From an uncultured Opitutia bacterium (lineage in GTDB: Bacteria; Verrucomicrobiota; Verrucomicrobiia; Opitutales; Opitutaceae), in NCBI GenBank assembly GCA_903900845.1, contig CAIUOU010000061.1, positions 1 to 41,869 on the forward strand: 41,869 bases of DNA, written 5' to 3'. A program made the translations under genes and the position numbers. This document shows positions 2,210 through 25,236 of the stretch, in pieces; positions within the stretch are counted from its first letter, which is position 1; every line of letters begins with the position of its first letter. The notes beneath the pieces are model-generated. The model worked only from the letters and a program-made list of their open reading frames with translations. It was not told where the DNA came from and did not search any database.

Positions 2210-3523
2210 CTAACGGGCTGAAAGGAAATCGCGTACGTGCAGCGCGACCTGATCCTTGGCCACCTCGACCTCCGCGCGCTGCGCGAGATCGCGCACCTTC
2301 ACGACGCCCCGCGCCACCTCGTCGCCGCCGTAGATCAGCGCCAGCCGCGCCCCCGATTCGGAGGCCGCCTTGAACTGTTTGCCAAAGGCGGAATCACGCA
2401 GGGGATACTCCACGCGGAAACCCGCCGCGCGCAGCGCATGGATGTCGGCGAACGCCGCCAACCGCCCCGCTTCCCCGTCGATCACGCAAAAGACATCCGG
2501 CCCCTGAAGGATTTTCGGCATGAGCCCGCGCTGCTCGAGCAGGAGGGCGAATGTCATGTCTCCGATCGCGAAACCAACGGCCGGCAACGCGGGGCCACCG
2601 AGCTTCTGGACCAAGTCATCGTAGCGCCCGCCGCCCGCCAGCGCACGCAGGTCGCCCTTGCGATCAAAGGCCTCGAAGACGAACCCCGTGTAGTAGGCGA
2701 GACCCCGCACCACGCCGAGATCGACCTCGACGTAACGGGCCAGCCCCATCGCCTCGAGGGCCCGCAGCAGCCGCCGCCAATCCGCCAGACGCGCGGCGAG
2801 GCGCTCATCAGCGATCCCCACGAGCGTTTGCTCGAGCGCGGCCAGCGAACGGATGGAAAGAAACGCCATCACACGATCCTTGAGGCCGGGATCGAGCGGA
2901 CCGAATTGCTCGGTGTAGACGGCGAAAGCCGCGTCGCCGTGCTTCTCGTGGCGGTCGACGGCGGTGAGGATCGCGCGGATGCGCGGCTCGTCGAGACCCA
3001 AGGCGCCAAGGTAGTGGAACCACAGGTTGCGGTCGCTCAGGCGCACGTAGAAATCCTGCTCGGTCAGCCCGAACGCGCGCAGGCACTGGATCAGCAGGGC
3101 GATGAGCTCGACCTCCGCCTCGGGCCCGGGCTCGCCGAAGATGTCCGCGTTGAACTGGCAGAAACACCGACCGCGCCCCTTTTGCATGCGCTCGTAGCGG
3201 AAGAACTCGCCGATGCTGAACCACTTGATCGGACGCCGCAGGGCATTGGCGCGCGCGCCGACCAGCCGGCAGACGGTCGGCGTCATCTCGGGCCGCAGCG
3301 CCACCTCGCGCCCGCCCTTGTCAGTGAAGCTGAACAACTGCGCCTCGATCTCGTCGCCTGATTTTGCCTTGTAGAGCTCCAGCGGCTCCAGCACCGGCGC
3401 ATCGTACTCGGCGAAACCGAAGGTCGAGGCAGTCTGCCGCCAAAGCCGGAAGATATGACTCCGCCCGGCGAGGTCCTCAGGGTAGAACTCACGGAATCCC
3501 GGCAGGGTCTGGAAAGTGGCCAT
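2210..3523 (-). CDS. hisS: Histidyl-tRNA synthetase
   Basis: This class II aminoacyl-tRNA synthetase charges tRNA-His in the cytoplasm. At 437 residues it has family length. It shows the N-terminal GFREFYPED segment, class II motif 2 (FFRYERMQKGRGR at about 107-119), the histidine-specific block LGVVRGLAYYTG (269-280), GGGRYDDL (297-304) and motif 3 (AVGFAIGDMTFALLLE, 315-330). An HGTP anticodon-binding domain makes up the C-terminal ~90 residues. ATG at 3523 is chosen because MATFQTLPGF matches the family start; the frame is open further upstream to 3622, but that part overlaps the upstream gene's terminator. It lies downstream of the HU gene on the same strand and is separated from it by that terminator, so it probably has its own promoter. 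Confidence 0.97.
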   Translation of the reverse strand: MATFQTLPGFREFYPEDLAGRSHIFRLWRQTASTFGFAEYDAPVLEPLELYKAKSGDEIEAQLFSFTDKGGREVALRPEMTPTVCRLVGARANALRRPIKWFSIGEFFRYERMQKGRGRCFCQFNADIFGEPGPEAEVELIALLIQCLRAFGLTEQDFYVRLSDRNLWFHYLGALGLDEPRIRAILTAVDRHEKHGDAAFAVYTEQFGPLDPGLKDRVMAFLSIRSLAALEQTLVGIADERLAARLADWRRLLRALEAMGLARYVEVDLGVVRGLAYYTGFVFEAFDRKGDLRALAGGGRYDDLVQKLGGPALPAVGFAIGDMTFALLLEQRGLMPKILQGPDVFCVIDGEAGRLAAFADIHALRAAGFRVEYPLRDSAFGKQFKAASESGARLALIYGGDEVARGVVKVRDLAQRAEVEVAKDQVALHVRDFLSAR

Positions 3524-3563
3524 GGTTGGCGATGGTTGCGCGACATCAAAGGACGGCGCCAAC

Positions 3564-3587
3564 AAAAAAGCCGCGCGAGGGCGCGGC
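3564..3587 (-). terminator. Rho-independent terminator of the HU/IHF gene
   Basis: Read on the minus strand, a 7-bp GC stem (GCCGCGC/GCGCGGC, 3570-3576 and 3581-3587) with a 4-base loop is followed directly by six T residues (3569-3564). It lies 38 bp past the HU stop codon and 40 bp before the hisS start. Confidence 0.85.
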
Positions 3588-3625
3588 CTTGACCCGTGGC
3601 GCAGCGCGCGCCGGGGAACCAAGCG

Positions 3626-3961
3626 TCAGGCCGGACCCGCGGCGGGCGGCGGGGTCTGCAGCTGGCTGAGGTTCAGATTTTTCAGCTGCTGCTTGAGAAT
3701 CTTGCCCGACTTGAACTTCACCACCGCGCGTTGCGGAATGATGACCTCGGCCTCGGGCTTGTTGGGATTGCGGCCCACACGTTGCTTGCGCACCTGGACC
3801 TCCAAGACGCCAAAGTTGCGCAACTCGACGTTTCGCCCGGAGGCCAGGGCCGCTTGGATGATGTCGAGCGTCTGTTGGACGGTGTCGACGATTTGCTTCT
3901 GGGGAAAGCCGGCCTTCTTGTAAATTTCCAAGACAATCTCGCGCTTCGTCAGGTTCGCCAT
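3626..3961 (-). CDS. HU/IHF-family nucleoid DNA-binding protein with C-terminal extension
   Basis: This small histone-like protein bends and compacts DNA. Residues 1-90 fit the bacterial HU/IHF fold: two N-terminal helices (LTKREIVLEIYKKAGF...), the ELRNFGVLEV strand and the DNA-arm motif GRNPNKPEA. The ~20-residue tail (LKNLNLSQLQ then a Pro/Ala run) goes beyond the usual ~90-95 residues. ATG at 3961 is preceded by an AAGGA-type ribosome binding site about 5 bases upstream on the minus strand, one of the few clear ones here. A promoter candidate lies in the divergent gap shared with menG, and a rho-independent terminator follows. Whether it is HU-like or IHF-like cannot be decided by eye. 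Confidence 0.93.
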   Translation of the reverse strand: MANLTKREIVLEIYKKAGFPQKQIVDTVQQTLDIIQAALASGRNVELRNFGVLEVQVRKQRVGRNPNKPEAEVIIPQRAVVKFKSGKILKQQLKNLNLSQLQTPPPAAGPA

Positions 3962-4003
3962 GGGGTTCCTTTTTGCTAAAGCTGAAGGATGTGGGTCTGA
4001 CCG

Positions 4004-4032
4004 AGATAATTACGCGCGCGGGCGTGCGTCAA
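4004..4032 (-). promoter_or_regulatory. Candidate promoter for the HU/IHF gene
   Basis: On the minus strand TTGACG (4032-4027) and an AT-rich -10 region (TTATCT at 4009-4004, within TAATTATCT) are separated by 17 bases, about 43 bases before the ATG at 3961. The -35 is close to consensus but the -10 is poor. The AT-rich patch stands out in this GC-rich background. Confidence 0.4.
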
Positions 4033-4087
4033 CCCTTATGACCAGCTTGCGCTCCGGCCGAAAATACCGCCCGTTAAACCCTTAACC

Positions 4088-4801
4088 ATGCCCGATCCCA
4101 AGGCCGTCAACTCGATGTTCGGGCGAATCGCGAAACGGTACGACACCGCCAACCGGGTGCTCTCGGCAGGCATCGACCGCGGGTGGCGCCGCCGCCTGGT
4201 GGAGGCGGTGGGCCGGCATCGACCGGCGAGGGTGCTTGATCTCGCAACTGGCAGTGGTGACGTGGCTTTCGCGATTGCGAGGGGGCTCCACCCCTCACCG
4301 GAAATCATCGGTATGGACTTCTGTCAGCCGATGCTGGACGAAGCGGAGGCAAAGCGCCGGATGAGCCGTGATCCGGAGGAGTCCAAGATCCGCTTTCTGC
4401 CGGGAGACGGCCTGGATTTGCCGCTGCCGGACGGCAGTCAGGACGCCGTGACCATCGCTTTTGGCCTGAGGAACCTCGCCGACCGCGCCCGAGGGCTGGC
4501 GGAAATGCGTCGGGTGCTGAGGCCCGGAGGCATTCTCCATGTGCTGGAATTCTCCCAGCCGCACGCGTGGTTCCGACCGTTTTACTACTTCTACCTGCGG
4601 CATCTGCTTCCCGCCCTCGCTCGGCTGCTCACGGGGGACCGGGACGCGTATCTTTATCTCGGTGACACCATCGGGAAGTTCCCCTCCCGCGAAGAATTGA
4701 CGGCGGAAATTTCCACGGCCGGCCTCGAGGTTATCGCGGCGGTGCCGCTTACCTTGGGGATAGTGGCGCTCCATTCCGCGCGGAAGCCGGCGGCCGGCTG
4801 A
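4088..4801 (+). CDS. ubiE: Demethylmenaquinone / ubiquinone C-methyltransferase (MenG/UbiE)
   Basis: This SAM-dependent methyltransferase carries out the last C-methylation of menaquinone (or ubiquinone) biosynthesis, supplying the membrane electron carrier. Diagnostic UbiE signatures are visible: the N-terminal MFGRIAKRYDTANRVLSAGID segment (residues 10-30), SAM motif I VLDLATGSGD (49-58), IAFGLRNL (123-130) and RVLRPGG (142-148). The 237-residue length matches the family. It is divergent from the HU gene and convergent with the A-type Fe-S carrier gene. If the organism is a verrucomicrobium the substrate is most likely demethylmenaquinone; this follows from the suspected taxon, not from the sequence. 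Confidence 0.95.
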   Translation: MPDPKAVNSMFGRIAKRYDTANRVLSAGIDRGWRRRLVEAVGRHRPARVLDLATGSGDVAFAIARGLHPSPEIIGMDFCQPMLDEAEAKRRMSRDPEESKIRFLPGDGLDLPLPDGSQDAVTIAFGLRNLADRARGLAEMRRVLRPGGILHVLEFSQPHAWFRPFYYFYLRHLLPALARLLTGDRDAYLYLGDTIGKFPSREELTAEISTAGLEVIAAVPLTLGIVALHSARKPAAG

Positions 4802-5209: not shown

Positions 5210-5321
5210 TTAACCAAGGTGGACACGTCCAAACCTCTGTCAACGAGCCCTACAGCAGATTTCGCGCCGAATCCGTGATGTTGCCTTGCCACTCTGCGCG
5301 CCGGGCGATCTGCTGCCAACC

Positions 5322-6296
5322 ATGGCGGCACTTCAGCAAATCTCCGGTGAGTTGCGGTATGAGATGACCCGCAAGCTCGCGGAAGGGGGCATGGGCGTGG
5401 TCTACGAGGCGGTGCAGCTCGGGGCCGGCAACTTCCGCAAGGTGGTCGCGGTGAAGCTCATTCGCGAGGAGTACTCGGCCATCGAGGAATTCCAGAACAA
5501 CTTCATCGGCGAGGCGCGCCTGGTCGCGGACCTCATTCACACCAACATCGTCCAAACCTATCACCTCGGGAAGATCGGCGGGCAGTACTACATGGTCATG
5601 GAGTTCGTGCGCGGGGTGAACCTCGAGCAGTTCATCGAGCAGCACCGGCGGCAGCGGGTCCCCGTGCCCGTCGATCTCGCCGTGTTCATCACGTCGCGCG
5701 TCGCGCGCGGCCTCGCCCACGCGCACACCAAATGCGACCGCGAGGGCCGCCATCTCAACATCGTCCACCGCGACGTCGGCCCGAAAAACATCCTCATGGC
5801 GCTCGAGGGCGACGTGAAGCTGACCGACTTCGGCATCGCGAAGGCCCTCGACCTCATGTACAATGAAGAAGGCAAGGTGATCGCCGGCAAGGACGAGTAC
5901 CTCTCGCCGGAGCAGGCGAACTACGGCATCACCGACGCGCGGGCCGACCTGTTCCCGCTCGGCATCGTCCTCACCGAGCTTCTGCTGGGCCGGAACGTCT
6001 TCCGCTCCTCCGACCGCGCCCAGTCGCGGCGCAACATCCTAGGGATGGCGATCCCCCGCTTCTCCTCCCTGCGTCCCGACATCGACGAAAAGCTCGAGGC
6101 CATCATCCAGCGCGCGCTCGAACGGGACCGCGACCAGCGCTACCAGTCCGCCCTCGAGATGCTGACGGCGCTGGAGATGTACATCTACGGGCACGGCTAC
6201 GGGCCGACCAACGAGAAGCTTTCCGTCTACCTGAAGAACCTGTTCGGAATCGTCGACCCCGTGATCCCCGCCCCGGGCTCCCGCCAACCGTCCTGA
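5322..6296 (+). CDS. Soluble Hanks-type serine/threonine protein kinase
   Basis: The 324-residue protein is almost entirely a eukaryote-like kinase domain. It has the glycine loop [10 protein letters not shown] (21-30), the ATP lysine K45 (VAVKLI), a likely C-helix Glu E64, HRD at 149-151 with Asn156, DFG at 169-171 and SPEQ at 195-198. The catalytic loop reads HRDVGPKN, without the usual Lys two residues after the catalytic Asp, as also occurs in some bacterial kinases. There is no transmembrane segment and no PASTA or other sensor domain, so it should act in the cytoplasm. ATG at 5322 is chosen; an upstream in-frame TTG at 5286 would add 12 residues. It ends 16 bp before rpoN on the same strand, suggesting co-transcription. 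Confidence 0.93.
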
Positions 6297-6312: not shown

Positions 6313-7827
6313 ATGAGCGGACCCGGGTTCAGTCACGAGCTGCGTCAGCGGCAGACCCAGTCACTGGTGCTGGCGCCGCAGCTGCGGCACTCCCTCAAGA
6401 TCCTGCAGGTCGCGGCGCTCGACCTGCGGTCCGTGATTCAAGAGGAACTCCAGACCAACCCCACCCTGGAGGAGCTGCCGATGGAGGGGGTGAGCCTCGA
6501 CCGCGAGGCGGAGCAGGCGACGGACGGCGAATCCGACGGTCCGGAAGCGGGCAACGAGGGTCGTGAGGGGCCAGGCGATGACGGCGAGCCGGGCAAGCGG
6601 CACGACGAGATGGATTTCTCCCGGGACCGGGAGTTCGAGATCCTGGGAAAAATCGACCAGGATTGGCGCGATCACCTTTCGCAGGCCGGGAGTGGCCAGG
6701 GGCACTCCGCCGAGGACGCGGAACGGAGGCAGCACTTCCTGGACTCACTGGTCAACGAGACCTCCCTGCAGGAGCATCTGATGCAACAAGCGGAGCTCTC
6801 CGACCTCGCCGACGCGGAGATGAAGGCGATGCGCCATCTGGTCGGGGGCATCGACGACCGCGGGTTTCTTACCCAGACGCCGTCCGATGTCGCCCTCCAG
6901 ACGGGTCTGCCGCTCGACGCGGTGCAACGGGCGTTGGCGGTGCTGCGGACGTTCGAGCCGCCGGGAATCGGCGCCGAGGACCTGGCCGGCTGCCTGCTCG
7001 CCCAATTGTCGGCCAAGGGGCGCGGGGAGTCCGTGGCCGCGCGAATCATCCGCGAGCACTTTGAACTGCTCAAACGGCGCCGGATTCCGGAGCTCTCCCG
7101 CAAACTCGGGGCCGACCCCGAGGATGTGCAATCAGCGATCGAGGAGATCGGCCGGCTCGACCCCGCCCCGGGCCGGCGCTTCGCCGAGGACAACAACCGC
7201 GTCGTCGTGCCCGATGTGACGGTGGAGCGCGACGGCGACGACTGGAAGATCATCCTGAACGGCGACTACATCCCGCGCCTCCGCATCTCTTCGGCCTACC
7301 GCGACCTCATCGCCAAGGGGTCGCTGTCCAAGGAGGACCGCGACTACCTGCGGGAACGGATGCGCTCGGGCAAATTCCTCATCGACTCCATCGAGCAGCG
7401 CCAGCGCACGATTGAACGCATCACCCGCGAGATCCTCAACGCGCAGGGCGATTTCTTCGAGCACGGCGTCTCGTCGCTGAAGCCGCTCACCATGACGCAG
7501 GTCGCGGATGTCGTCGGGGTCCATGAGACGACGGTGAGCCGGGCGATCGCCAACAAGTACATCCGCACGCCGCACGGCGTCTTCGACTTCAAGTATTTCT
7601 TCACCCCGGGCTACCAATCCGAAGCCGGGACGGCCGTCTCCAACACGAGCGTGAAGGAGATGATCGCCGATCTGATCAATCTCGAGGACCGCTCCCGGCC
7701 CCTGAGCGATCAGGACCTCGTGGCCAAGCTGCGCGAGCGCGGCATCACGATCGCGCGGCGAACGGTGGCCAAGTACCGCGAGGAGCTGGGCATCCTGCCC
7801 AGCAACCTCCGCCGCGACTACAAATAG
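6313..7827 (+). CDS. rpoN: RNA polymerase sigma-54 factor
   Basis: This alternative sigma factor recognises -24/-12 promoters and needs AAA+ activators to start transcription. The three classic regions are present: the Gln/Leu-rich activator-interaction region at the N-terminus (RQTQSLVLAPQLRHSLKILQ), an acidic linker (about 60-115), and the core-binding and DNA-binding part. A helix-turn-helix lies around MTQVADVVGVHETTVSRAIANKYI, and the RpoN box ARRTVAKYRE sits near residue 481. At 504 residues it is normal in length. It directly follows the kinase gene. No AAA+ sigma-54 activator is encoded in the window. Its stop is 6 bp from the tsaD stop on the other strand. Confidence 0.97.
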   Translation: MSGPGFSHELRQRQTQSLVLAPQLRHSLKILQVAALDLRSVIQEELQTNPTLEELPMEGVSLDREAEQATDGESDGPEAGNEGREGPGDDGEPGKRHDEMDFSRDREFEILGKIDQDWRDHLSQAGSGQGHSAEDAERRQHFLDSLVNETSLQEHLMQQAELSDLADAEMKAMRHLVGGIDDRGFLTQTPSDVALQTGLPLDAVQRALAVLRTFEPPGIGAEDLAGCLLAQLSAKGRGESVAARIIREHFELLKRRRIPELSRKLGADPEDVQSAIEEIGRLDPAPGRRFAEDNNRVVVPDVTVERDGDDWKIILNGDYIPRLRISSAYRDLIAKGSLSKEDRDYLRERMRSGKFLIDSIEQRQRTIERITREILNAQGDFFEHGVSSLKPLTMTQVADVVGVHETTVSRAIANKYIRTPHGVFDFKYFFTPGYQSEAGTAVSNTSVKEMIADLINLEDRSRPLSDQDLVAKLRERGITIARRTVAKYREELGILPSNLRRDYK

Positions 7828-11201: not shown

Positions 11202-12458
11202 TTGACCCCGGCGCGCAAGACTTCTGCGTTCTGGCACCCCGTGACCGACCCCGCCGAGCTGCTGACACCCCGCGTTCTCATCGTCGACGACGAGCGCCAG
11301 ATCCACGCGTCCCTGCGCCTGCGCATCGGCGCGGCCTGCGAGCTGGTCTCGGCCTTCGACGCGCGCGACGCCCTCGCGCGCATCCGGCAGACCCGCTTTG
11401 ATCTGTGCATAACGGACATCCACATGCCGCGGATGGACGGGCTCGCCTTCATCGACGCCGCCCGCGGCCTCGATCCCGGCCTGGGCTTCGTGGTGCTGAG
11501 CGCGTTCGACACCGAGGATAACCTGCGGCGGGCGATCCCGCTCTCGGTTTACGACTTCCTCGCCAAGCCGCTCGGCTCGCGCGCCGAGCTCGAGGAACGG
11601 CTCGGCGGCTGGATCGAACGGACGCGGGAACGCCGGCGCGAGCAGGAGCTGGCGCGCGCCGCCGGCACGATCGCAGACGATCGCGACGCCGCGCGGCTCG
11701 AGCGAGACGTGGAGGTCGTCGTTTCCGAGACGGCCCGCGAGGTCCTGCGTCAGAACGCTGGCCTGCTGACGACGATCCACGCGCACCTCATCTCCGCGGC
11801 CACCCAGCTGGCTCCGCGCAGCCGTGCGGATCCCGGCCTCGCGCTGATCCTGCGCGGGCTCGAGGAGGCCCGGAAAACCGCCGACGCGGCGATGGCGGCC
11901 ACGGGCGGGTTTTTCGACTCCTCGTACGGCAGCCGTGACGCCTCACCCGCCCAACCCAACGAGGGCATCCGGCAAGCGATCGACATCGCGCAACGGAGCG
12001 GGCGCGCCGAGGCGGAGGGCAAACGGGTGGATTTCCGGCCCGCGGACAGCGCGGCGATCGTGCGCGGGTTGTCCGGCATCGACTTCCTGCTGATGGCGAT
12101 TCCCGCCATCGGCGCCGCCCTCACCTGCGCCGCGCCCGGCACGACCGTCGGAATCCAGCTGGAGTTCGCGCCGCGGCTGGACGCGGTCACGCGCGATCCT
12201 CGGCGCCGGCGCCTGCTGTGGATCAACCGGCGCCGCGCCGTCTCCAGCCATCCGGTGATGGTGGTCGTGATCTCGGCCGACGGACCCTCACTCACCCCGA
12301 CGGAAGTGGAGGACTGGCTGAAGGGCGAACACGCGGCGCTCACCGCGATCACCCCGCGTGGCCTTCTCAGCGGCATCGCGAAATGCCGCGGCGCGCTCGG
12401 TGCGGCGGTGGCGCCGGATGCGACGAAGTTCCAACTCCTGCTCGTGCTGCCGGTCTGA
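11202..12458 (+). CDS. Response regulator receiver fused to a degenerate histidine-kinase-like domain
   Basis: Residues 24-140 form a receiver with all key residues: D29/D30, phospho-acceptor D72 (ITDIHMP), S100 and K122 (FLAKPL). After a charged coiled linker (about 138-170), the rest follows the outline of an HDxxNLLT-type histidine kinase with its chemistry missing. The phospho-His segment reads RQNAGLLTTI (Arg where His is expected), the N-box region reads LLMAIPAIGAAL without the Asn residues, and the first glycine box reads ISADGPSLTP. The end (FQLLLVLPV) looks like the closing strand of an ATPase domain. The start is uncertain: TTG at 11202 or GTG at 11241. It heads a three-gene cluster with two regulators. 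I infer a receiver with a pseudokinase output that may act by binding. Confidence 0.85.
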   Translation: MTPARKTSAFWHPVTDPAELLTPRVLIVDDERQIHASLRLRIGAACELVSAFDARDALARIRQTRFDLCITDIHMPRMDGLAFIDAARGLDPGLGFVVLSAFDTEDNLRRAIPLSVYDFLAKPLGSRAELEERLGGWIERTRERRREQELARAAGTIADDRDAARLERDVEVVVSETAREVLRQNAGLLTTIHAHLISAATQLAPRSRADPGLALILRGLEEARKTADAAMAATGGFFDSSYGSRDASPAQPNEGIRQAIDIAQRSGRAEAEGKRVDFRPADSAAIVRGLSGIDFLLMAIPAIGAALTCAAPGTTVGIQLEFAPRLDAVTRDPRRRRLLWINRRRAVSSHPVMVVVISADGPSLTPTEVEDWLKGEHAALTAITPRGLLSGIAKCRGALGAAVAPDATKFQLLLVLPV

Positions 12459-12468
12459 CCGCGCTCCC

Positions 12469-13188
12469 TTGATCCTCGTGCTTTCCAGCGCCGGGCGGGA
12501 ACGCTCCGCCCTCGTCACGCTCTCGGAAAGCGCCGGCTGGGTGGCGACGGAAGCGGGAGGCCTGCGCGAGGCGCGACGGCTGCTGGCGAGACAAAGTCCC
12601 CGCGTGATCCTGGCCCGGCACCAGCTGTCGGACGGCTTCGCGGACCATCTGCTGCGCGAGATCGGGCCCGAAACTCCCGGTCGGCCGCGGCTGATCATTC
12701 TCGCGTCGCCGGGGCTGGCGGCCGCCGAGGAGGCGCGCCAGATCTCCCTCGGGGCGGACTGCGTCCTGCGCGATCCCGTGCGTTCCGAGGTGCTGCTGGC
12801 GTACCTCGCGCGGTACCTGCGCCGGAAGGAGCAGGACCGCTCCGCTTCCGCCCGCGCCCCCAGCGTGCTGGCTTTCGCGGGGGGCGAGCTGCGGCCGGAG
12901 GACCGCACCCTGCGACTGCGCCGCGCGACGCGCACGCTGACGCCGCGCGAGGCGGCGCTGGCCGAAGTCCTCGCCGCCCGCCCGGGTGAGGTGGTGACGT
13001 ACGAGACACTTTACGGGGAGGTGCTCGGCCGGCGCTATCGCGGGGACACGAGCAACCTGCGGGTCCTGCTGGGCAAACTCGCCGCAAGCTGCGGCGAACT
13101 CGGCGGCGAATTGCGGGCGTGGGTGGAGGTCATCCCGAAGGCGGGCTACCGCCTGCACCCGCGGCGGCGCCCGCGCCCCCCGGCCTGA
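12469..13188 (+). CDS. Winged-helix transcriptional regulator with a non-phosphorylatable receiver-like domain
   Basis: The protein is built like OmpR/PhoB. A receiver-like domain spans about 1-125 and a winged-helix DNA-binding domain about 140-235 (LTPREAALAEVLA..., ending VIPKAGYRLHPRR). The receiver keeps its hydrophobic core but lacks the phosphorylation residues. The acidic pair near the start is SS (ILVLSS), the phospho-acceptor strand reads VILARHQL (Ala for Asp), the Thr/Ser strand reads LIILAS, and the conserved Lys is Asp (VLRDPV). TTG at 12469 is inferred as start, 10 bases after the previous stop, because it begins the first receiver strand; upstream codons overlap the previous gene. 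It probably binds DNA without phosphorylation control. Confidence 0.85.
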   Translation: MILVLSSAGRERSALVTLSESAGWVATEAGGLREARRLLARQSPRVILARHQLSDGFADHLLREIGPETPGRPRLIILASPGLAAAEEARQISLGADCVLRDPVRSEVLLAYLARYLRRKEQDRSASARAPSVLAFAGGELRPEDRTLRLRRATRTLTPREAALAEVLAARPGEVVTYETLYGEVLGRRYRGDTSNLRVLLGKLAASCGELGGELRAWVEVIPKAGYRLHPRRRPRPPA

Positions 13189-13211
13189 CGGCCGCCGGAT
13201 CGCCGGAGCGC

Positions 13212-13259
13212 TTACGGAAAAATTACGGCGCCGCAGTGGGCCCGCGCGCGGGCTTACGA
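13212..13259 (+). promoter_or_regulatory. Possible operator: phased TTACG repeats around a 14-bp GC palindrome
   Basis: The 83-bp gap between the two regulator genes holds TTACGG at 13212 and 13223 and TTACGA at 13254. They are 11 and 31 bp apart, close to one and three helical turns. A perfect 14-bp palindrome (GCCCGCGCGCGGGC, 13240-13253) lies between the second and third copies. This could be an autoregulatory site. The repeats are short and the reading is speculative. Confidence 0.25.
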
Positions 13260-13271
13260 CCGACTGGCGGC

Positions 13272-14027
13272 GTGAACAACCAACCGCTGCAAATCCTGAT
13301 CCTGAAGGCGGACCGGCTCTACGCCGAATTCCTGCGCCAGCATGTCGGGCACGCGTTCCCGCGCGTGCGAACCACGGTCGCCAGTTCCGTCGCCGAGGCC
13401 CGCGAGTTGCTCGGCCGGGTCGCCTTCGACCTCTTGCTCACCGGCTTGGGCGAACACACCGGCGGGGACGCGCTCGAGCTGGTCGCGCAGTGCAAGCGCG
13501 CGCCGCTGCGGGCGCGCCGGGTCGTCGTGCTGCTCGATCGCCACGAGTACCGGGTGCTCGCGGCGCTGCGGGCCCTGCCGGTCGACGGCATCTTCGACCC
13601 CGCGGAGGACTGCCCCGCGACCTTGGCCGCGGCGCTCCCGGCGGTGGTCCGCGGCTTGCGCTACCACAGTCCCGGCGCCGCGGCCCGCCTGCGCCAGCTC
13701 GCCGCGGCGCCCGGCGCGCTCTTCCGCATCCTGACGGACTTCGAGCAGGTCGTGCTCAGCGTCATCGGCGACGGCTGCGACGATCTCGCGGCCGCGGCGC
13801 AGCTCGGCCTGAGCCCCGCCACGATCTCGACCGTGCGGCGGGCGCTCCACCGGAAGCTGGGGGTCCAGCACCGCGGGGAACTCGTGCGGATGGCCGCCCA
13901 GAAGGGCTACGTGCGATTCACCCCGGCTGGAGTGGAGCGCCCCGGCTACGGCCTGCTAGCCGCCGCCTACCAGCCGCGCCATCGCCCGCGGATGCCGCGC
14001 GAGGAGGCGGTGCCCGCCACGGCCTGA
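13272..14027 (+). CDS. LuxR-type regulator with a non-phosphorylatable receiver-like domain
   Basis: The layout is NarL/FixJ-like. A receiver-like domain spans about 1-130 and a LuxR-type helix-turn-helix about 155-215 (DFEQVVLSVIGDG..., LGLSPATISTVRRALHRKLGV). The receiver has again lost its key residues: the acidic pair is replaced by KA (ILILKADRLY), the phospho-acceptor strand reads FDLLLTGLG (Thr for Asp), and the conserved Lys is replaced in GIFDPAE. A ~40-residue Pro/Arg-rich tail follows the HTH. GTG at 13272 is chosen because it begins the first strand of the fold; the frame is open upstream into the previous gene. It is the last member of the three-gene cluster. Its target genes are unknown. 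Confidence 0.85.
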   Translation: MNNQPLQILILKADRLYAEFLRQHVGHAFPRVRTTVASSVAEARELLGRVAFDLLLTGLGEHTGGDALELVAQCKRAPLRARRVVVLLDRHEYRVLAALRALPVDGIFDPAEDCPATLAAALPAVVRGLRYHSPGAAARLRQLAAAPGALFRILTDFEQVVLSVIGDGCDDLAAAAQLGLSPATISTVRRALHRKLGVQHRGELVRMAAQKGYVRFTPAGVERPGYGLLAAAYQPRHRPRMPREEAVPATA

Positions 14028-23693: not shown

Positions 23694-24770
23694 CTATCCG
23701 GCGGCCTTCGCCTCCGCGGCGGGCAGTTCGAACCAGAAACACGCGCCCTGCCCCGGCGCACTCTCCACCCCGACGTTGCCCCCCAGACGGGAGACGATGC
23801 GCTGCACGATGGAAAGCCCGAGACCATGCCCGTCGGCCCGCTGGCTGCCGATCCGCGAGAATGGCACGAACAGAGATGCCTGCAGCTCCGGGGAAATGCC
23901 GTCGCCGGCGTCCTGAACCCAGTAGCGGACGCATCTGTTTTCAGGCCGCGGGAGGAAACCAACCGAGATTCGCGCCGCGGGCCCGCCGTACTTGGCGGCG
24001 TTACTCAGGAAATTGGACCACAGGTGGCTGATCCACGGCGCATGCCCGAACGCCGGGGGCAGGGACGGCGGAGGTGCGACCACCGCCTCTCGATCGCGGA
24101 ACACACCCTCGCAATTCTCGAGCGCGTCCCGCAGCGGGGCGTTCATGTCGACGGGGACCATCGCCACGGACGCCTTCCGCACCCCGGCCAAAAGGAGGAG
24201 TTCGTCGATGATGGTGGCCAACCGCTCGGCGCTTTTCGCGGCCGACTCGACGTTTGCAGCCACGCGCGCGTGGTCACCCTGCTTGGCGAGGGAAGTGGCC
24301 AGTTCGAGCCTGCCCTTGAGCACGGCCAACGGGCCGCGCAGATCATGCGCCACCGTATGGGAGAATGAGTCGAGCTCATCGATCAGCTCGCGACGCTCGA
24401 GCCGAGCCTGCACCGAATGCACCAGTTCCTCCCGCGTGAAGGGCTTCGGAATGTAGTCGTCGGCTCCCAGGCCCATGCCGGTCCGCACGTGGGCGCGGGA
24501 ACCGAAGCCGGACACCACAATGACGGGCACCCTCCGCAGCGAGCGATCCGCGCGCAGCTCCCGCAGCAGGTCCAACCCCGACTGTCCCGGCATCTCGATA
24601 TCGGAAATGATCAGCTGCGGCTCCTTGCGCCGCGCCGCGGCGAGCGCGGACTGCGGCTCCTCGAACGCCGCCACCGCGAAACCGCTCGACGAAAGGATAT
24701 CCACCATCAATTGCCGCAGACCGGGGTTGTCCTCCACGACCATGATTTGCGTCCGTCCTGCCGAAAGCAT
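23694..24770 (-). CDS. Receiver-histidine kinase hybrid without a sensor domain
   Basis: The 358-residue protein begins with a complete receiver (E13/D14, phospho-acceptor D57 in IISDIEMP, S87, K109 in YIPKPF). A histidine kinase core follows directly: H142 in VAHDLRGPL, N-box SNFLSNAAKYG (252-262), DAGDGI and GHGLGLSIV glycine boxes. With the receiver first and no PAS, GAF or membrane part, it probably takes its input from another kinase. It then either signals through its own kinase domain or feeds back. ATG at 24770 is chosen at the first strand of the receiver; an open frame to 24974 has no domain content. A partner gene is not seen nearby. Confidence 0.93.
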   Translation of the reverse strand: MLSAGRTQIMVVEDNPGLRQLMVDILSSSGFAVAAFEEPQSALAAARRKEPQLIISDIEMPGQSGLDLLRELRADRSLRRVPVIVVSGFGSRAHVRTGMGLGADDYIPKPFTREELVHSVQARLERRELIDELDSFSHTVAHDLRGPLAVLKGRLELATSLAKQGDHARVAANVESAAKSAERLATIIDELLLLAGVRKASVAMVPVDMNAPLRDALENCEGVFRDREAVVAPPPSLPPAFGHAPWISHLWSNFLSNAAKYGGPAARISVGFLPRPENRCVRYWVQDAGDGISPELQASLFVPFSRIGSQRADGHGLGLSIVQRIVSRLGGNVGVESAPGQGACFWFELPAAEAKAAG

Positions 24771-24855
24771 CGGCCTAGGGAGAAGCTCCGGTCGCGGATC
24801 GCAACGCGTTTCCCGGCATCCGCGAAATTTTCCCACGAGGACCGCGCGCGGCGAT

Positions 24856-25236
24856 TCAGCGCGAACTACCCGGCGGATCCAGCGGCCCGTCTGGCCGGAA
24901 GAGGTAGGCGTTTCGCGCGACAAAGCGGAACGACAGCGTGCCGAGCACCGTGAGCACCGCCACCGTGCCCGCAAGGGTGCGCCCCCGCCAGAGACCCGCG
25001 AACCACGCCTGGAACTCCGCCATGGTCACATTCGCCGAGCCGCCCATCACGCGCAGCTCGTGCATGTGCTTTTTTTGCAGGAGGAGGTTGCCGAGCGGGT
25101 CGACCGGCTCCGCCCCGGACCGCAGCCAAAGCCAGAGCGCCGCGCCCCCTCCGAGAGCGACGAGCGCCACGGAAATCCGATTGATGCGACGATGATCCAA
25201 GCGCGCGAGGCTCGGCCCCGGTGCGCGCCGACACAA
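24856..25236 (-). CDS. Hypothetical small membrane protein with two predicted helices
   Basis: The 126-residue frame shows two hydrophobic segments (about 20-38 and 87-105) flanking a polar central region with NLLLQKKHMHELRVMGGSANVT. The pattern fits a two-helix inner-membrane protein with an external loop. The start is uncertain; the longest form begins at TTG 25236. I do not recognise a family. It lies between a small basic ORF and the receiver-histidine kinase on the same strand. Codon use and the clear membrane pattern make it likely to be real. Confidence 0.6.
   Translation of the reverse strand: MCRRAPGPSLARLDHRRINRISVALVALGGGAALWLWLRSGAEPVDPLGNLLLQKKHMHELRVMGGSANVTMAEFQAWFAGLWRGRTLAGTVAVLTVLGTLSFRFVARNAYLFRPDGPLDPPGSSR

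Follow-up and report, generated by a model that had tools for sequence, protein, structure and literature searches.

Receiver-controlled histidine kinases have their described prototype in LvrB of the Leptospira LvrA-LvrB-LvrC system, in which phosphorylation of the LvrB receiver by LvrA lets a coiled coil form and frees the catalytic and ATP-binding (CA) domains (PMC13269768). The pseudokinase DivL of Caulobacter, in which the phosphorylated histidine is replaced, is described as a kinase fold thought to be reused for reading the state of a receiver (PMC5361649). In CmrRST of Clostridioides difficile, a kinase is encoded together with an intact-receiver protein and an OmpR-type regulator that has a pseudo-receiver (PMC12632262, PMC12548384). 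A 2025 review regards the switching of bacterial pseudo-receivers as a mystery (PMC12632262). Features of all three systems recur in a gene cluster of an uncultured Opitutia bacterium (Verrucomicrobiota, Opitutaceae; assembly GCA_903900845.1), found on a stretch of 41,869 nucleotides of contig CAIUOU010000061.1 that is hereafter called the window. The cluster encodes an intact receiver on a kinase core predicted to be dead (gene 1), followed by two DNA-binding regulators with putative pseudo-receivers (genes 2 and 3). Comparison with related freshwater bacteria indicated that the unit really comprises four genes, the fourth coding for an intact membrane histidine kinase.

The three tandem genes on one strand at 11202-14027, reported in an original prediction made from the sequence of the window, were recovered with the following features:

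11202-12458, plus strand: gene 1, receiver (REC) and predicted dead histidine kinase core, consisting of a pseudo-DHp (dimerization and histidine phosphotransfer) and a pseudo-CA domain; TTG start, 418 aa
11265-11621, plus strand: gene 1 receiver, intact (Pfam Response_reg, E 9.2e-19); codon of Asp72 at 11415-11417; residues kept 25/25
11622-11936, plus strand: gene 1 predicted pseudo-DHp helices, with Arg183 for His (codon 11748-11750); from profile alignment with the REC-HisKA-HATPase family and helices in the model
11937-12455, plus strand: gene 1 predicted pseudo-CA, an ATPase fold without N-box Asn and G1 Asp; from the predicted model and aligned residues
12469-13188, plus strand: gene 2, putative pseudo-receiver and OmpR/PhoB-type winged helix; TTG start, 239 aa
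12616-12618 and 12772-12774, plus strand: replaced residues of gene 2, codons of Arg50 and Asp102
13212-13228, plus strand: direct repeat TTACGG-AAAAA-TTACGG upstream of gene 3, a candidate operator
13272-14027, plus strand: gene 3, putative pseudo-receiver and LuxR/GerE-type helix-turn-helix; GTG start, 251 aa (the longest open frame begins at 13119)
13443-13445, plus strand: replaced residue of gene 3, codon of Gly58

Pfam recognized Response_reg alone in gene 1, leaving about 280 residues without a family, and identified Trans_reg_C and GerE at the C-termini of genes 2 and 3, respectively. Response_reg was not found by Pfam in either gene 2 or gene 3.

Orthologues of gene 1 were collected from 28 related loci, of which 24 encoded the whole protein (record titles: uncultured Opitutae, Opitutaceae or Verrucomicrobia). 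Residues were compared in an alignment of 25 sequences, window included, from which four weak receiver-only matches (L124-L127) were excluded. The acidic pair (Asp29, Asp30), the phospho-acceptor Asp72 and Lys122 of the receiver were kept in 25/25, as was Ser/Thr100, while the position of the kinase histidine (183) held Leu in 12, Arg in 10, Gln in two and Ser in one, and never His. Asn was absent from all 25 sequences at N-box positions 301 and 305, as was Asp at G1 position 359, these three positions being placed by weak, low-scoring profile alignments. Comparison with an intact family of 383-aa proteins (REC-HisKA-HATPase) aligned 193 columns that cover the receiver and extend into the DHp helix, where the family histidine stood opposite Arg183 (hhalign, E 6e-22). 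Nothing significant was obtained for the pseudo-CA region by Pfam, by profile search of the PDB (best matches spurious, E 0.17) or by profile comparison with the kinase and the receiver-kinase; its identity is therefore settled by the predicted fold only. The predicted model (mean predicted local distance difference test score, pLDDT, of 79) displayed an ATPase fold, residues 246-418 superposing on MprB with a Z score of 16.2 and a root-mean-square deviation (rmsd) of 2.7 over 141 aligned residues. By its modelled fold and aligned residues, gene 1 thus qualifies as a predicted pseudo-histidine kinase, with the kinase fold kept and the catalytic residues lost.

The six best Foldseek matches of gene 1 were all LvrB chains, over the whole length (E 3e-13 to 2e-12). 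Model and residues together gave gene 1 the LvrB-type architecture, with an N-terminal receiver of intact site, a linker helix, DHp and CA, and it lacked the phosphorylatable DHp histidine as well as the N-box Asn and G1 Asp of the CA domain (0/25 each). Gene 1 accordingly appears to be related to LvrB and other receiver-controlled kinases but dead: by its model it keeps the parts for an LvrB-like switch without the catalysis. The locus would also resemble LvrA-LvrB-LvrC in that an upstream kinase acts on a protein composed of receiver, linker helix, DHp and CA. In the described system, however, LvrB autophosphorylates at its histidine and passes the phosphate to LvrC (PMC13269768), whereas gene 1 is without the histidine and ATP-site residues and is followed by two DNA-binding proteins with putative pseudo-receivers. 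DivL, likewise a histidine kinase fold with its histidine replaced, is the nearest precedent for a kinase fold that reads a receiver, but it is described as reading a separate receiver, DivK, and as having sensor domains of its own (PMC5361649), while the receiver of gene 1 lies in the same chain.

In most relatives, gene 1 was closely preceded by the end of a same-strand gene for a membrane histidine kinase (about 680 aa). The distance to gene 1 was 7-91 bp for the scored upstream matches of 15 genomes; G040 had a full copy at this position, and G005 and G011 had pieces of one. Although Pfam detected HATPase_c alone in five of five kinase copies and in the copy of the window genome, the histidine, the two N-box Asn and the G-box residues were present in all 14 aligned copies. 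The unit therefore has a catalytic kinase. When 57 genomes were searched with the kinase alignment, 20 matches reached about 710 bits or higher; each of them was in a genome with gene 1, and the pieces in G005 and G011 were recovered as well. No kinase orthologue was found by this search in the five genomes of the genus that lack gene 1 (G001, G013, G017, G019 and G020; G019 is only 70% complete), their best match among those listed being a paralogue at 342 bits. A perfect 22-and-5 split over 27 same-genus genomes would have a probability of about 1.2e-5 under independence, although the genomes are not independent. In the window genome the kinase was kept though unlinked (contig C110, 131455-133479, minus strand); it was also retained away from gene 1 in G026, G022 and G002, and lay about 5 kb from it on the downstream side in G018. 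A partnership between kinase and gene 1 is thus well supported by gene content and position. The original prediction had proposed the gene 1 receiver as the only phosphorylation point; it is indeed the only canonical site among the three proteins, but the kinase, which the prediction had missed, also belongs to the unit. Assignment of this kinase to PrsK, the PEP-CTERM histidine kinase, was rejected (NCBIfam TIGR02916, 86-91 bits for five kinases including the window-genome copy, against 300 bits required).

Full-length gene 1 orthologues (E 1e-113 or better) were present in 23 of 115 genomes searched: 22 of the 27 same-genus genomes, window genome included, and one of the 88 others (G040). 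G017 and G041 displayed weak, partial matches only. All 23 genomes also harbored gene 2 (E 2.3e-48 or better) and 21 harbored gene 3 (E 1.1e-55 or better). Matches to genes 1 and 2 lay 2-44 bp apart in 22 of the 23, and the three-gene tandem was found in 18, while the genes flanking the cluster varied between genomes; gene 2 was on another contig in G003, and gene 3 in G002 and G022. The conserved synteny that had been proposed as a check was thus observed, as was conserved loss of the same residues in the aligned orthologues of all three genes. Ratios of nonsynonymous to synonymous substitution rates (dN/dS) in seven genome pairs ranged from 0.00 to 0.32 in every domain, dead ones included, indicating purifying selection; these comparisons mark the products of genes 1-3 as functional proteins rather than debris.

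Close to the gene 1 locus, several relatives encoded a protein of 383 aa that combines receiver, HisKA and HATPase domains. It could not be retained as an obligate partner of gene 1: it was absent at E 1e-60 from the window genome and from other genomes with gene 1, and was present in four without it (G001, G013, G017, G020). The window itself encodes a second receiver-HisKA-HATPase protein (23694-24974, minus strand) with kinase domains intact at Pfam level, which had no match to the 383-aa family at 1e-20 and was rejected as a member. Near the gene 1 locus of several relatives the live receiver-kinase adjoined a second membrane histidine kinase (L082, 14134-15282; L085, 9260-10408 and 11589-13604), and the same pair occurred in genomes without gene 1. 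This pair was possibly the source, by duplication, of the pair formed by the kinase and gene 1. Elsewhere in the window, a Ser/Thr-kinase-like gene (5286-6296) lay directly 5' of a sigma-54-like gene (6313-7827) on the same strand, both labels having been given by eye.

Gene 2 was closest, among solved structures, to KdpE, matched by its orthologue profile over positions 2-231 (E 3.5e-11). Its model (mean pLDDT 92.6) comprised a receiver and a winged helix, with RpaA, KdpE and PmrA among the best fold matches and RitR (5u8k, 5vfa) and HP1043 (2hqr) among further ones. In all 24 aligned orthologues, window included, the phospho-acceptor Asp was replaced by Arg50 and the Lys by Asp/Glu102, and Arg50, Arg101 and Pro103 were kept; no conserved cysteine was found among the invariant columns. 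The orthologue profile of gene 3 matched RcsB (E 3.9e-8), and also VraR and NarL. Its phospho-acceptor Asp was replaced in 20 of 20 aligned orthologues, window included (Gly in 15, Ser in five), and its first acidic residue by Lys in 19. Profile matches and aligned residues, and for gene 2 the model as well, therefore place both products among predicted pseudo-receivers, or atypical response regulators, a class whose receiver fold lacks the phosphotransfer residues.

CmrRST is the nearest precedent for a kinase, an intact-receiver protein and an OmpR-type pseudo-receiver encoded together. CmrR is nevertheless described as a DNA-binding regulator of the OmpR family, whereas at this locus the intact receiver is fused to a putatively dead kinase, gene 1 having no Pfam DNA-binding domain and a kinase-like C-terminus, and a second, LuxR-type pseudo-receiver is added. 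Gene 2 has its architecture and lost receiver residues in common with the atypical OmpR/PhoB-type regulators HP1043 and ChxR (PMC12632262, PMC3960148); HP1043 is described as an orphan, while gene 2 has a conserved receiver-pseudokinase neighbor and, in most relatives, a kinase nearby.

LuxR-type regulators with receiver losses like those of gene 3 were also found directly 3' of conjugation (trb-like) genes in six genomes: G017, G020, G029, G048, G065 and G068 (loci L089, L090, L092, L093, L055-L059, L061, L175 and L176). The relaxase and TrbI of G017 were confirmed by Pfam, and the remaining conjugation genes were named by eye. Other gene 3-like regulators stood apart (G032, G051), and a relative in G067 had, by eye, the phospho-acceptor Asp. 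This distribution suggests that the gene 3-type pseudo-receiver group also serves integrative conjugative elements. Occurrence of the same losses outside the cluster speaks against the step-by-step series of losses that had been proposed for it; since gene 1 is moreover kin to a different kind of protein, the receiver-kinases, the losses look like separate histories brought together.

A direct repeat, TTACGG-N5-TTACGG, was recognizable with at most three substitutions in all 21 regions upstream of gene 3, and was within one mismatch of a degenerate pattern in 19 of them (exceptions G002, G005). The window genome contained a single site for this pattern and none for a reversed control, and none of 100 shuffles of the window contained the repeat with up to three mismatches. 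A longer form, with TTGG at +25, was restricted to 12 of the 21 regions, the window having TGGG at this position. The layout of two hexamers separated by five nucleotides is the one reported for sites bound by KdpE (PMC3264566), and gene 2 is the most likely candidate reader of the repeat ahead of gene 3. Gene 3-type regulators were weakened as candidate readers, as G029, G065 and G068 have such a regulator and no repeat in the corresponding gap. These three regulators also differ from gene 3 in their helix-turn-helix, and the repeat is present at locus L119, whose contig of 9.4 kb gave no gene 3 match. At L119, which carries genes 1 and 2, the repeat (3313-3329) follows gene 2 and precedes an HlyD-family exporter gene (3386-4777, E 2.4e-17), an arrangement in favor of gene 2 as reader; an apparent peptidase-containing ATP-binding cassette (ABC) exporter, labeled by eye, lies further on. 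Two same-genus genomes without genes 1 and 2 also carry the extended repeat, placed where a conjugation operon begins, with a TrwC-type relaxase gene on one side and trbC on the other:

L175 (13382-13410) and L176 (13327-13355), minus strand: extended repeat at conjugation operon, G017 and G020

Strikingly, where the repeat precedes a gene other than gene 3 in these cases, that gene is one of export or conjugation. No regulon could be defined from the near-matches in relatives: of 12 further ones, that on contig C639 of G016 also had TGGG at +25, those of G009 and G014, like that of G019, lay ahead of the same reductase-like gene, and the others shared no context. The near-match ahead of the reductase-like gene (L156, L188 and L189, in G019, G009 and G014, respectively; gene labeled by eye) reads TTAGGGAAAA(A/T)TTACGG and is probably the site of a different regulator.

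A modified two-component system of four genes, in which the kinase signals to the gene 1 receiver and non-phosphorylatable regulators dock on the dead core, is a possible account of these features and the one preferred here, tentatively. The membrane histidine kinase, judged by its intact motifs, would autophosphorylate and then phosphorylate Asp72 of the gene 1 receiver, a step suggested by adjacency in relatives and by co-inheritance when unlinked. As fold and ancestry suggest, the receiver would then switch both linker helix and kinase-like core in the manner of LvrB-type kinases, the output being, with catalysis lost, an altered shape and binding surface. We infer that the switched core may bind or release gene 2, gene 3 or both, or feed back on the kinase. 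Genes 2 and 3 would act on DNA without phosphorylation at the usual site, and the conserved direct repeat, with gene 2 as its most likely reader, would govern transcription of gene 3. A further reading, in which the transcriptional outputs are non-phosphorylatable by design and the phosphorylated receiver controls both of the dissimilar DNA-binding pseudo-receivers through allosteric contacts made by the dead kinase core, appears unlikely.

Several observations weigh against this four-gene system or blur its outline. G017 and G020 carry the extended repeat with no gene 1 or gene 2 orthologue, so that gene 2 cannot be its sole reader. The rmsd of about 19 to LvrB means that the domains match and not their mutual placement, and the likeness holds domain by domain only. 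The kinase lies away from gene 1 in five genomes (G000, G026, G002, G022 and G018); by eye, the kinase of G007 (L071, 10895-12265, minus strand) has a short N-terminus and altered N and G1 boxes, with the histidine kept, and that of G005 is cut, an assembly error being possible in both. A close gene 3 is absent in G015 and G040 and is therefore not indispensable. The residue losses are also less clean than the original prediction had them. The intact receiver of gene 1 and its missing kinase His, N-box Asn and G1 Asp were borne out, but G2-box glycines partly remain (387 in 25/25, 391 in 24/25). Likewise, loss of the phospho-acceptor Asp in both regulators and of the Lys in gene 2 holds throughout, but the first acidic position of gene 2, which is Ser in the window, is still Asp in five of 24 orthologues. 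Loss of catalytic residues would by itself fit decay, with the genes as pseudogenes on their way out. This explanation is nearly refuted by the sequence comparisons and looks very improbable, given the dN/dS values, the invariance of the replacement residues and the retention of gene 1 in 22 of 27 same-genus genomes.

The chief rival to the four-gene system dispenses with contact and separates two layers, as has been proposed for CmrT of C. difficile. The kinase and gene 1 would form a loop of their own, with gene 1 modulating the kinase or serving as a phosphate sink, and genes 2 and 3 would be always active and controlled by their amount, gene 3 through the repeat. The conserved element upstream of gene 3 and its separation from genes 1 and 2 in G002 and G022 agree with such an arrangement, which nonetheless leaves unexplained why gene 1 has a complete kinase-like fold under purifying selection despite its lost catalysis; we consider it somewhat unlikely. 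Genes 2 and 3 could instead sense a ligand or redox state, a small molecule or oxidation acting through the altered receiver pocket, with gene 1 a mere neighbor. RitR, a redox-sensing regulator without the aspartate, is among the fold matches of gene 2, whose pocket residues are tightly kept, but the missing conserved cysteine does not favor redox sensing and the persistent neighborhood of gene 1 (22/23) would need another reason, making this explanation quite unlikely. The genes may also be independent regulators brought together by chance or by a common transcript, without shared function. Relatives of gene 3 with the same losses do occur elsewhere, after conjugation genes, and the cluster has lost gene 3 to other contigs in two genomes and gene 2 in one; mere neighborhood is still improbable, as genes 1 and 2 stay adjacent while the flanks change and orthologues are retained even if unlinked.

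No single part of the modified four-gene system is new in kind, pseudo-receivers, pseudo-histidine kinases and receiver-controlled kinases all being known; their combination is new to the literature searched, in which no paper on such a gene composition was found, subscription journals and preprints being mostly beyond its reach. The locus links two conserved regulators with putative pseudo-receivers to a receiver-pseudokinase and an intact kinase, together with a candidate operator. Competing modes of switching (by contact, by amount or by ligand) would thereby be distinguishable in one small system, a natural test case for disabled regulators. The live receiver-kinase found a few kilobases from the dead one in several relatives offers a natural contrast for the role of a kinase fold after loss of catalysis. 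If it holds true, the reading by contact would provide a pseudo-receiver system with an identified phosphorylation input.

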